Shown here: positions 2,131 to 15,343 of the stretch, one piece after another
Position numbering within the stretch: the first letter of the stretch is position 1
How the letters are laid out: each line of letters opens with the position of its first letter
From: a virus
IMG/VR virus record: IMGVR_UViG_3300028025_001682
Coordinates: 1-57,192 of that record
Length of the DNA stretch: 57,192 nt
Strand: one strand, 5' to 3'
Notes under the pieces: generated by a model
Database searches by the model: none
What the model was told of the DNA's origin: nothing
Seen by the model: only the letters and a program-made list of their open reading frames with translations
Program-made: the position numbers and the translations under genes

Positions 2131-2559
2131 ATGACTTGGACTTATCAAGGACAAGTTGTAAATGAATTACCTGAAGACTGTGTTGGTTTTGTATATTGCA
2201 TTACCAATATAGCTTCGGGGCGCCAATACATTGGCAAAAAATTAGCAAAATTTAGTAAAACGACCTACAAGACTGTAAAGTTGAAGAACGGCACCAAGAA
2301 GAAAAAGAAGATTCGAAGCAAAATCGACAGCGACTGGCAGGAATATTACGGGTCCAGTCCTAATTTAACAGCAGACATCAACGCACTAGGCAAAGACAAT
2401 TTCTCAAGAGAAATACTATACTATTGTACATCTAAAGCACAAACATCTTACATTGAGGCCCGAGAACAATTCGACCGCAAAGTATTAGAATCCGATGATT
2501 ATTATAACGGACATATTCAAGTCCGTGTACATGGCTCCCACATAAAATCTAAAATTTAA
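2131..2559 (+). CDS. GIY-YIG-domain protein (Seg-like endonuclease or relative)
   Basis: The N-terminal half carries a GIY-YIG nuclease signature: GFVYCITN starting at about residue 19 for the first strand and RQYIGKK at about 32-38 for the second. A conserved-looking glutamate in SYIEAREQF near residue 110 could be the metal-binding acid. A lysine-rich insertion (about 48-65) lies between the signature and the helices. The protein is 142 aa, shorter than T4 SegA-F proteins and lacking an obvious C-terminal DNA-binding domain. It may therefore be a free-standing homing endonuclease remnant or a nuclease conserved for another task. It lies directly upstream of the structured non-coding region at 2561-2995, a position where mobile endonucleases are often found, but no intron boundary could be shown. 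Confidence 0.75.
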   Translation: MTWTYQGQVVNELPEDCVGFVYCITNIASGRQYIGKKLAKFSKTTYKTVKLKNGTKKKKKIRSKIDSDWQEYYGSSPNLTADINALGKDNFSREILYYCTSKAQTSYIEAREQFDRKVLESDDYYNGHIQVRVHGSHIKSKI

Positions 2560-2560
2560 G

Positions 2561-2995
2561 GCACCTTAAGCGGTAACAAGCAAGCGTCAGCTAATATCGG
2601 ACGCCCAATACCTGGACCTCGGGTCGCAGGGAACGGAAATCTCTTGCCGCTAAGAGTACTCAACCACTGCCCGGATGGATGAAGATCGCTAATAAGACCT
2701 GCGATTTGGTTGTTTGAAAAGGAATGAATAGGCAAAATGAGGGGATAGAGACACCCCACGTTTACTAATATGTTAGCGTATATTTGTAAACCGCCGCTGG
2801 AATAAGACTGAGCTCGTGGTACAGGCCAACCGCCACTGTAATGCTTTAACGCTAAGTGACATATGTTCGACTCGAATAATGTTTCTTTGCCCGTCCTGGG
2901 CAAAGTGTGACTGAACGATCTGAATAATATTATTTCGTCTTCGACGAAGTATGTGCTCTGAGTGTTAACGAAAGAGCAAATGAGCGTCAGCTCAT
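2561..2995 (+). ncRNA. Candidate large structured RNA with three-way junction and loop pseudoknot
   Basis: This roughly 435-nt stretch lacks a credible gene but is packed with complementary segments. 2565-2580 pairs with 2643-2654 (12 bp with two bulges) and encloses hairpins 2584-2588/2600-2604 (GCGTC/GACGC) and 2611-2618/2622-2630 (CCTGGACC with GGTCgCAGG). 2661-2665/2708-2712 and 2683-2689/2701-2707 form a nested stem. Hairpin 2760-2791 (GTTTAC/GTAAAC and AATAT/ATATT) has loop TTAGCGT (2773-2779), which is complementary to ACGCTAA at 2849-2855: a pseudoknot. Further hairpins are 2885-2905 (CTTTGCCC/GGGCAAAG), 2934-2948, 2954-2978 and 2980-2995. Large phage-borne ornate RNAs (GOLLD, ROOL) are known, but I cannot assign this one. 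The strand is inferred from the flanking genes; its promoter was not identified. Confidence 0.6.
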
Positions 2996-3003
2996 TATAA
3001 ATA
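2996..3003 (+). promoter_or_regulatory. Late promoter box TATAAATA
   Basis: This is an exact match to the T4-type late promoter octamer (recognised by a gp55-type sigma in T4). It sits 26 nt upstream of the ATG at 3030 and directly after the last hairpin of the structured region. It would drive the Pro/Thr-rich gene. Confidence 0.75.
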
Positions 3004-3029
3004 AAAGAAATATTATAGGAATTCCCTAA

Positions 3030-3908
3030 ATGAAAATTAATGAACTTATCGCTGAACAACAAAATATAGAAGAGGGTATTGGGTCGTTCCTCGGTAAAGC
3101 AGCTGGACATGTAGCAGGTGCAACAGGTGCCGCATGGAGAGATGCCAAACAGGGATACAAAGATGCAAAAGCTGTATGGGATCCAAAAGATCCTCCTGGA
3201 ACCTATAATAATGATCCTGCAACAAATGGAGCCGCACCTGCAGGTGGTCCAAATCCTGATGAACTAAGAAAGCAGGCAGCCGAATTAACTAAACAAGCTG
3301 ATCAAATAGAAAAGACTGCTAGTCAACCTGCACCAGCTCCTACTACACCTCCGCCCGCTCCAACAAATACAACAGCTCCTGCACCTAATACTGAACCTGC
3401 TGCTCAAACAGAACCAGCAGCGCCCGATCAATGGCCAGCAGGGCTTCCTAAGTTTAATTCAGTTACAGGACAAAAATTTACAAGCCCTGAAGAAGCAGAA
3501 CAGGTAACTAATTCTCCAGAATTTAAACAACAAATGGCAGACGTTGCCGCTGGCAAAGATCCAGGAGGTGTTCAAGCTACACAACAGCCAGCACCGGCAC
3601 CTACTACTCCTGCGCCAACTGCACCGGCTCCAACAACTCCTGCACCTACAACTCCGCCAGCAAGTACGCCTCCTACAACAGGCGGCAAGTTAACTAAAGC
3701 ACAACAGGATGCTATGAAAGCTAAATTACAAGGTAAGAGAGCAGCAGGTCAAACTACCGCTAGTCAAACAGGTTCTGGATTTAAGGACTACGTAGGTGGC
3801 AGTGGAGAAAGAATGACCGGTGTTGATGCCAGTGGTGCTCCAGTTTATCAAAAGATACAGCGCGAAGGCGTTGAGTTCCGTAGTAACTTCTTGGGAATGA
3901 TGATTTAA
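3030..3908 (+). CDS. Pro/Thr/Ala-rich protein with predicted prohead-protease leader
   Basis: This 292-residue protein is of unknown function. The N-terminal 15 residues form a short charged helix ending in I-E-E|G, which fits the T4 gp21 protease consensus (I/L-x-E before a small residue). A glycine/alanine-rich segment (SFLGKAAGHVAGATG) follows, then long proline/threonine/alanine-rich linkers (about 95-140 and 185-225) that are likely disordered. The C-terminus ends in a compact segment with NFLGMMI. By analogy with T4 internal proteins and Alt, the leader could target it into the prohead; that is inference. It is transcribed from the TATAAATA box at 2996 and converges on the leftward gp26 operon, overlapping that operon's end by 4 nt. 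Confidence 0.8.
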   Translation: MKINELIAEQQNIEEGIGSFLGKAAGHVAGATGAAWRDAKQGYKDAKAVWDPKDPPGTYNNDPATNGAAPAGGPNPDELRKQAAELTKQADQIEKTASQPAPAPTTPPPAPTNTTAPAPNTEPAAQTEPAAPDQWPAGLPKFNSVTGQKFTSPEEAEQVTNSPEFKQQMADVAAGKDPGGVQATQQPAPAPTTPAPTAPAPTTPAPTTPPASTPPTTGGKLTKAQQDAMKAKLQGKRAAGQTTASQTGSGFKDYVGGSGERMTGVDASGAPVYQKIQREGVEFRSNFLGMMI

Positions 3909-13438: not shown

Positions 13439-14557
13439 ATGGGAAGACCTCTCAAGAAAAAATTGTTTGGCGCTAATGCCAATAACAATCTTAAAGTACA
13501 ATTCAGCACAGGAACTAACGCAAGTGTTCCTGGATACATTGTTGAACAACTGGGTACTAAAAAATTTAAATGCCGAGATGCAAATGGTTATACAGCAATT
13601 TGCAGATTAGTTACAAAGCCAGCCGCACTATTAAGTTCTGGAGAAATGAGTATTACTGTTAAGTATGATGACAACACAGTAAGACAAGTTTACAAAATTG
13701 CGGCACACAGAATTTCTGTCAATCCTATTAGCACAGGTACTACTACAGTAGGTATGGCTACAGCAGGATGGACATTCTCTACAAGCACAACAGATACATT
13801 ATGGCAGATTGAAGAAGCTGGTACTGACACTACAGTTACTGGTGATATTGATCTTGAAGGTGACGACGGCCCAACATTACCGTTTGGAATGGATCGTAAT
13901 GCTCCGTTGCCAGGAAGTGGTGCTCCTCTCTTTACAACAGCAACATCTGGCATTGTAGCCTACACATTAAAAGGTACAGCATACAATCCAGGCGCTGGCG
14001 TAGCAAGTGTTACAAACAGCACAGCTGGTCTATACCGTAAGAAGTATGTTGGTTTAGCTTTAACTGCTGCTGGAAATACAAGTACATGGAACATGAACTT
14101 CTTTAGTACAGGTACATCGATCTCGACAGCAGATAAAGAAGTTGATACTTTTGTTAGCTTTGGACAACGCGATGACTTGCCCTACGAAGATGGTTACAGT
14201 TTTGAGTGGAAAGGTTATATCTACGCAGATACAACAGCTACCTATAACACTGCTATTACCTGCGATGACGATGTAGTTATGTGGGTTGGTAGTGCAGCCT
14301 TAGCACCTGCTAAGACAAACGCTCACCATGCACAGGCCTACATCAATCAAGGTCAAGTTGGATACAATCCTAACAGTTTATCTTTAACTGGCGGTTTGTA
14401 TTATCCAGTTAGAATTTGGTTTACTGAATACGGCGGCAGCGAACGCTTCCAGCTATTCATGAATCGTTCTACAGGAGCTCAAACAATGTTAGGTGGTACT
14501 GGAACAAGTGCAATTACATTTGCTCACAACAGTGCTACACAAGGATACAACCCATAA
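13439..14557 (+). CDS. Virion protein, MGRP family, with PA14/GLEYA-like C-terminal domain
   Basis: This 372-residue protein begins MGRPLKKKLFG, a basic start shared with the next gene. Residues about 30-95 (GYIVEQLGTKKFKC, then SGEMSI and YKIAAHR) form a small beta domain also present in that paralogue. The C-terminal half (about 200-372) has the pattern of a PA14/GLEYA beta domain: FEWKGYIYADTTATYNTAIT, then CDDDVVMWVG, and further on YYPVRIWFTEYGG. Such domains often bind carbohydrate. Position directly after gp23 suggests a capsid-decorating or virion-surface protein that may help bind particles or cells; this is inference. A TTAAGGAA ribosome-binding site precedes the ATG. Confidence 0.8.
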   Translation: MGRPLKKKLFGANANNNLKVQFSTGTNASVPGYIVEQLGTKKFKCRDANGYTAICRLVTKPAALLSSGEMSITVKYDDNTVRQVYKIAAHRISVNPISTGTTTVGMATAGWTFSTSTTDTLWQIEEAGTDTTVTGDIDLEGDDGPTLPFGMDRNAPLPGSGAPLFTTATSGIVAYTLKGTAYNPGAGVASVTNSTAGLYRKKYVGLALTAAGNTSTWNMNFFSTGTSISTADKEVDTFVSFGQRDDLPYEDGYSFEWKGYIYADTTATYNTAITCDDDVVMWVGSAALAPAKTNAHHAQAYINQGQVGYNPNSLSLTGGLYYPVRIWFTEYGGSERFQLFMNRSTGAQTMLGGTGTSAITFAHNSATQGYNP

Positions 14558-14563
14558 TGGGTT
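14549..14563 (+). terminator. Weak terminator-like hairpin over the stop codon
   Basis: AACCCA-TAA-TGGGTT forms a 6-bp stem with the stop codon in the loop and is followed by only two T's. It could attenuate readthrough into the next gene, for which no separate late box was found. Confidence 0.3.
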
Positions 14564-14565
14564 TT

Positions 14566-14602
14566 ATGCGGTACCCACTCCGCGTAGCAGATAGATTCTG
14601 CT
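14566..14602 (+). promoter_or_regulatory. Two-hairpin 5' leader element, copy B
   Basis: Hairpin 1 is GCGG-TACCCACT-CCGC (14568-14583). A GTA linker leads to hairpin 2, AGCAGA-TAGAT-TCTGCT (14586-14602). It has the same architecture as copy A at 13389-13422, with compensatory stem changes. It lies 24 nt before ATG 14627. Confidence 0.6.
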
Positions 14603-14626
14603 AATTTTTATATAAAGGAAAACAAA

Positions 14627-15343
14627 ATGGGACGCCCAATTAAAAAGAAATTCTTCGGTAATCTAATTACCCCTTATCAAAATCAAGCAACCGGTGGCCG
14701 TACTGGTGTCGGCGGTGAAGGTATCACTACTTTATTAGTTACAAACACTGCAACTAACAGCGGATATAGCACAACAACTTCAGTTACTTGGGTAGCAAGT
14801 GCTCCTCAGATTGCTGGTGGTGTTGCTGCCAGCGGTACAGCCGCAGTTACCTATGTAGGTGGCACAGGCCGTATTCAAAGTTTAACTGTTGTTGATTCTG
14901 GTACTGGCTATACAACAACAGGTAGTTTAGCATTAACATTTACACCTAGCTCAGCAGGTACAGCCGCAACTTTTGTTGCTACAACATCTACAACACGTCA
15001 AAATGCTATTGCATTTGTTTCTTACCTAACAACAGGTTCTAGTGCGGTTAATTCTGGTGACATTCTAAAACAAGAAGCCAGCAAGCGTTATCTAGTTCAA
15101 AATTCTCAAGGTCAAGGCCAGTGCAAACTAGTAGCATCACCGACTCTAGCAGCAGGTCAAATGAATATCATTGCTACTGATGCTAATGGAAGCACTTACT
15201 TTGTTAAGAAGCTAACAGCTCGTAAAGCAGTTGTTGCACAATCTACAATGAGTACTGCATTCTTAGTAGGTGACGGTGTATCTACAGGATGGACTTTAGA
15301 TGCGCCATCTGGAACTATTGTCTCTATTAGAGATACTGTCTAA
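14627..15343 (+). CDS. Virion protein, MGRP family
   Basis: This 238-residue protein starts MGRPIKKKFFGN, paralogous to the protein encoded just upstream. A low-complexity Ser/Thr/Gly-rich beta region covers about 25-130. Residues about 150-205 (KRYLVQNSQGQGQCKLV, then AGQMNI and VKKLTARKAVV) correspond to the small N-terminal beta domain of the upstream paralogue. It lacks the PA14-like domain. It is probably a virion surface or decoration protein with a shared anchoring module; function is unknown. It has an AAAGGAA ribosome-binding site and is followed by a strong terminator. Confidence 0.8.
   Translation: MGRPIKKKFFGNLITPYQNQATGGRTGVGGEGITTLLVTNTATNSGYSTTTSVTWVASAPQIAGGVAASGTAAVTYVGGTGRIQSLTVVDSGTGYTTTGSLALTFTPSSAGTAATFVATTSTTRQNAIAFVSYLTTGSSAVNSGDILKQEASKRYLVQNSQGQGQCKLVASPTLAAGQMNIIATDANGSTYFVKKLTARKAVVAQSTMSTAFLVGDGVSTGWTLDAPSGTIVSIRDTV

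Follow-up and report, generated by a model that had tools for sequence, protein, structure and literature searches.

The window is the whole stretch of DNA analysed, 57,192 nucleotides of IMG/VR virus record IMGVR_UViG_3300028025_001682. It derives from a T4-like phage, with an SbcC-like gene upstream of the locus described here and relatives of the T4 baseplate and portal genes downstream. The locus comprises the following elements:

2131..2559, + strand: SegE-type GIY-YIG endonuclease gene (Pfam PF19835, E 2.4e-33), immediately upstream of the RNA
2565..2998, + strand: whole structured RNA, about 434 nt, covered over its full length by the homologue profile in several hundred IMG/VR loci
2579..2715, + strand: match to the full model (positions 1-141) of Rfam family RF01718, Polynucleobacter-1 (105 bits, gathering score 37, E 1e-22)
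2996..3003, + strand: T4-type late promoter box, TATAAATA, read directly from the sequence; it serves the downstream gene and overlaps the 3' end of the RNA
3030..3908, + strand: downstream gene, with the MKINEL- start common to the most frequent downstream family

The sequence-only reading had placed a large, unassigned structured RNA between a GIY-YIG gene and a late promoter, and this arrangement was confirmed. The 5' end of the RNA lies at the stop codon of the GIY-YIG gene (2559) and the 3' end at the last conserved hairpin (2980-2995). The GIY-YIG protein has 142 amino acids and consists of this domain alone. SegE-type proteins of this sort (phrog_447) are widely annotated as "NAD synthetase", apparently a misannotation that has been propagated. 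The downstream gene has no match in Pfam or PHROG. The commonest downstream family, which includes this gene and most of the + strand genes at this position, begins with MKI(x)E(I/L)(I/L), and several members end with FxSKFLG; these may be internal head proteins with a targeting peptide.

The label "unassigned" does not fit the whole RNA, as the 5' third is RF01718, matched at full length by covariance-model score. The term does hold for the remaining 280 nt or so downstream of 2715, where no Rfam family was found at E up to 1. In four homologues of the same type, RF01718 was likewise the only family at E up to 0.5. The sequence-only reading had been unable to match the RNA to GOLLD or ROOL, and it is neither of these: the GOLLD, ROOL and OLE covariance models gave no match in the interval at E up to 1, and RF01718 was the only family that did. 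Group I intron and tRNA mimicry were dropped as candidates because neither found any Rfam match; ARAGORN detected no tRNA or tmRNA in the window. Elsewhere in the window, a freshwater-2 RNA (RF02980, 59.3 bits) was recognised by Rfam at 14548-14629 on the + strand, at the junction of two structural-type genes (13439-14557 and 14627-15343). Both genes begin with MGRP, and the position fits a 5'-UTR element of the second.

Homologues were collected in two ways. A search with the GIY-YIG protein yielded 80 IMG/VR loci, 65 of which carry the RNA, whole or in part and often end to end, just downstream of the gene (nhmmer). A scan with 17-mers from the most conserved hairpin, independent of the protein, added several hundred loci. 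The RNA profile matches 482 of the 559 loci collected, some of these matches being partial, redundant or divergent, and the whole RNA of about 440 nt is carried by several hundred IMG/VR contigs. All homologues are uncultivated metagenomic contigs. Cultured phages gave no DNA match, and a 17-mer scan of bacterial species genomes returned 25 matches, a chance level, with no full-length homologue among them. Sampling 393 genomes of the family to which a Herminiimonas belongs turned up no RF01718, a weak negative.

Alignment of these homologues defined the fold of the RNA, whose main elements, all on the + strand, are:

2570..2573: 5' strand of pseudoknot PK1, pairing with 2647-2650 in the loop of the hairpin 2641-2644/2653-2656
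2579..2592: pseudoknot PK2, pairing 2579-2581 with 2590-2592, the latter being part of the P2 loop (stem 2584-2588/2600-2604)
2760..2791: hairpin P8, the 11-bp hairpin already seen in the single sequence; all 10 of its scored pairs change two-sidedly
2773..2779 (P8 loop strand) with 2849..2855 (partner strand): pseudoknot PK3
2796..2799: pseudoknot PK4, whose partner 2827-2830 belongs to the conserved GGUACCGG..AACCGCC hairpin
2869..2881: first copy of the concerted repeat, x A CUC n1 G A U n2 A n3 G
2885..2905: P10, an 8-bp hairpin that separates the repeat copies
2917..2929: second copy of the concerted repeat, x A UCU n1 G A U n2 A n3 A
2980..2995: P12, the 3'-terminal hairpin, 93% paired, with two-sided changes in five of six pairs

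In 100 non-redundant homologues, the model of 95 pairs with four pseudoknots has 92.2% of its cells paired, and 70 of the 95 pairs show two-sided changes. The corresponding figure is 79% for shuffled sequences and 35-41% when partners are slid along the alignment; the covariation score is 0.396 against 0.167 and 0.06-0.08, respectively. The slid controls are lenient to the structure, some of which had been derived from a previous alignment whose homologues overlap with these. A home-made test resembling R-scape, in which substitutions were re-dealt along the branches of a FastTree tree (122 sequences, 20 simulated null alignments), identified 41 significant column pairs. Among them are pairs 2777-2851 and 2778-2850 of PK3, the loop pseudoknot proposed from the single sequence; this element is 98% paired in the 100 homologues, with two-sided changes in all seven pairs. 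The hairpins at 2760-2791 and 2885-2905 were also found to be conserved (89-92% and 94% of cells paired in the same set). By contrast, the 12-bp closing stem suggested for 2565-2580/2643-2654 can be written in this sequence and is not the pairing used by the family: across homologues 2570-2573 pairs with the loop of a local hairpin, so that this region is another pseudoknot, PK1 (90% of cells paired, GC/AU/UA/CG exchanges, two-sided changes in three of four pairs). PK2 is 91% paired, with a GC/AU exchange at 2580-2591, and PK4 is 95% paired, with two-sided changes in two pairs. A non-canonical pair was noted at 2670/2680, where U-C and C-U replace each other in 122 of 122 homologues and U-U or C-C never occurs.

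The strong evidence for structure is this covariation; folding energy is weak evidence. On the + strand the energy is modestly better than that of shuffled sequences (z -2.1, with 4 of 100 shuffles as good), and on the - strand z is -0.4. The impression that the RNA is richer in G+C than its neighbours was only partly right: its 45.6% exceeds the 37% of the GIY-YIG gene and the 40% of the window overall, whereas the downstream gene has 47%. No conserved ORF was found on either strand. The - strand frame at 2556-3110, translation of which would have spoken against an RNA, is not conserved as a protein, and coding on either strand can be ruled out: just one of 122 homologues has, on either strand, 135 or more codons without a stop running through the RNA. 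Missing covariation, which would also have told against the sequence-only reading, is not what the homologues show.

The position of the RNA relative to the flanking genes was then compared across loci. In nearly all of them the GIY-YIG reading frame stops within a span that reaches from about 35 nt ahead of the first profile position to 22 nt beyond it; hence, gene and RNA abut or overlap. No excess of sigma-70 promoters precedes the RNA (76 loci, where shuffles predict 92), and no run of U follows P12 in the homologues. On the other side, the next gene is convergent in 57 of 117 non-redundant loci and lies on the + strand in 60. A late-promoter-like box within 70 nt accompanies 46 of the 60 + strand genes (15.8 expected) and one of the 57 - strand genes. 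These downstream genes are unrelated across loci, falling into 54 clusters, while the genes next upstream of the GIY-YIG gene fall into 27.

These data bear on the possibility that the RNA acts in cis, either as a leader or riboswitch ahead of the downstream gene or as an element governing stability or processing in the 3'-UTR of the GIY-YIG operon. Polynucleobacter-1 was indeed marked "probably cis-reg" by Weinberg et al. 2010 (PMC2864571), and the GIY-YIG gene always has the RNA at its 3' end, on the same strand. Yet half of the loci have a convergent gene downstream, and in the others this gene usually has its own late-promoter box, located between the RNA and the gene, which makes a role as 5'-UTR regulator unlikely. 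Of the roles suggested by the sequence-only reading, which were a packaged RNA, a regulator or a ribozyme, these data speak solely against a 5'-UTR regulator of the next gene. The placement that defines a riboswitch or 5'-UTR element, on the same strand before a conserved gene, is thus not what is seen here, nor is the position upstream of a gene implied by the class given to RF01718 in 2010. Membership in RF01718 stands nonetheless, because the cis-regulatory class was the authors' judgement and lies outside the model. As for the 3'-UTR version, which may still apply to the upstream operon, the structure goes far beyond what a stabiliser needs. Altogether we consider action in cis improbable. 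Beyond the 2010 paper (PMC2864571), neither RF01718 nor Polynucleobacter-1 is mentioned in the open-licence PMC literature.

The strongest non-canonical covariation in the RNA links columns that carry the same letter, 48 positions apart in the window (2874/2922, 2878/2926 and 2880/2928), and it marks the two copies of a repeat in the 3' module. Letters 2874, 2875, 2878 and 2880 are identical to letters 2922, 2923, 2926 and 2928, respectively, in all 122 non-redundant RNAs. By parsimony, these four positions have changed 23, 2, 8 and 13 times, always jointly; thus, more than 40 paired changes occurred in the non-redundant set with no one-sided change. In a wider collection of distinct RNAs the letters agree in 328 of 330, the two exceptions being, by their sequences, mis-hits of the search pattern. 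Identity is kept regardless of the letter: n1 is A or G, the next position G, A, C or U (A in the window, at 2875/2923), n2 A or G, and n3 U, A or G. Simple homogenisation does not explain it, since the CUC of copy 1 and the UCU of copy 2 always differ. The spacing between copies varies from 47 to 60 nt, with outliers of 61, 65 and 79, and is not locked to a reading frame; a translational hop from one copy to the other, of the kind known from T4 gene 60, was rejected because 47-60 nt spacings are not a multiple of three. Antiparallel pairing between the copies was also rejected as the cause, as A and C letters at 2875/2923 break the pairs and leave the identity intact. Given the letters observed, the identity of the repeats is not accounted for by ordinary pairing inside the RNA.

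Both elements might instead pair with one and the same target in trans, as in an antisense or decoy RNA, which would drive their identity whatever the letter, just as observed. Such pairing should tolerate mixed A/G states through G-U wobble, and the non-redundant set has none; simple base pairing with a target is therefore less likely than a same-letter contact or another strict reader. Nor did 3.3 Mb of flanking sequence or seven large contigs, all phage sequence, contain an excess of complementary matches of each RNA's own type. One contig has a single 16-nt complementary match in its tail-sheath gene, which homologues do not keep. On this search of phage sequence and the lack of mixed states, an antisense or decoy function appears doubtful. 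Somewhat better placed, and still tentative, is the idea that the copies touch through same-letter contacts, that is, parallel homo-pairs within one RNA or between the subunits of an assembly. If so, selection would be keeping identity rather than complementarity in modular phage RNAs with exchangeable 5' domains. Nowhere in the RNA, the GIY-YIG protein, 470 nt upstream or 240 nt downstream did a third column track the repeat letters. Whatever its cause, the concerted repeat is a clear and testable signature, and this cause would tell how such RNAs assemble or what they bind. It is found in hundreds of related phages and may point to a kind of RNA interaction still to be understood.

Some GIY-YIG loci lacking a good full-length match were found to carry a second type of RNA at the same place (L014, L040, L060 and at least 110 others, L606 onward). 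Its 5' 250-330 nt are unrelated by sequence to those of the first type, and it shares the 3' module with the same repeat. A pattern of 24 positions derived from this second type retrieved at least 120 further contigs, some of them probably marine, judging from sample names. Thirteen column pairs are significant, all of them canonical. The repeat letters are identical in 108 of 110 RNAs among the matches listed, the second letter being usually C and also U. Rfam has no family for the second type: six loci of RNA types other than the first were without a match at E up to 0.5. There is also a third variant (L057, L021, L023, L059, L070, L078), which shares the middle hairpin GGUACCGG..AACCGCC and the 3' module and has another 5' part. 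The 3' module with its two-copy concerted repeat is new here, as is the second RNA type, which joins this module to a different 5' domain and is absent from Rfam.

Both types follow the nuclease gene. The GIY-YIG gene precedes the RNA in 302 of 309 first-type loci with enough upstream sequence (a set of mixed origin, most found by RNA pattern), with one other gene between in nine. In L113, L118, L142, L143, L167 and L183 a gene of about 257-308 amino acids intervenes, and L171 has a 72-aa ORF there instead. Among the second-type loci listed, which were found by RNA pattern alone, the gene lies just upstream on the same strand in 94 of the 94 with enough upstream sequence; the protein has a median identity of 55% to that of the window.

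The HNH nucleases IsrB and IscB work with omega RNA, first seen as HEARO RNA. By analogy, the RNA could be the partner of the GIY-YIG nuclease in a two-component RNP. The linked nuclease gene looked for in an RNA-guided system is present, and the linkage holds for two different 5' domains while the other neighbours on either side vary, although gene order is generally conserved in T4-like phages. The RNA alignment reveals no hypervariable, guide-like end, the protein has only the GIY-YIG domain, and none of its columns follows the repeat letters. Moreover, the protein can exist without the RNA, as close relatives in cultured phages have none: Melnitz, whose GIY-YIG protein is 75% identical to one from a second-type locus, contains neither RF01718 nor the second-type signature. 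A two-component RNP of this kind seems unlikely.

Taken together, the comparisons establish a conserved, pseudoknotted non-coding RNA of modular build with a fixed gene neighbour and a concerted repeat. We favour, at a probability of roughly 0.55, a stand-alone phage RNA that acts in trans, with a scaffold, oligomer or RNP role during infection rather than a cis-regulatory one. The RNA would arise at the 3' end of the transcript of the GIY-YIG operon, since no conserved promoter precedes it and the coding end of the gene often runs into it, and would be cut from that transcript or form its end. Covariation shows a pseudoknotted 5' body linked to a 3' module in which one 7-nt element appears twice. 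Presumably both elements make the same contact, by holding the same partner or by touching each other, within or between molecules; doing the same job on the same contact, they would have to be identical. The neighbouring SegE-type nuclease could be a partner of the RNA.

Several known systems resemble the RNA in part. GOLLD is also a large ornate phage RNA, found in lakes and in the sea, and combines a conserved 3' region with a variable 5' region (PMC12286853). Unlike GOLLD, the RNA described here is shorter, is without a match to that family in Rfam at E up to 1, lies beside a GIY-YIG gene and has no tRNA in its window. ROOL is likewise a large phage RNA with multiple pseudoknots; Rfam gives no match to it in sequence or structure, and the neighbours differ. 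With HEARO, the omega RNA of IsrB-IscB, the likeness is that of a structured RNA beside a small nuclease gene, conserved as a pair; here, however, the nuclease is of another family, the RNA lies downstream of the gene and no guide-like variable end is seen. The closest relation is to Polynucleobacter-1 itself, whose whole model of 141 positions is matched. The RNA of the window is three times longer, phage-borne, not placed as a 5' UTR and provided with a fixed GIY-YIG neighbour, and it has the 3' module, the pseudoknots and the concerted repeat that the RF01718 model lacks. An orphan Rfam entry of 141 nt thus becomes a large and common phage-encoded RNA with a fixed gene partner, and its likely class is corrected.
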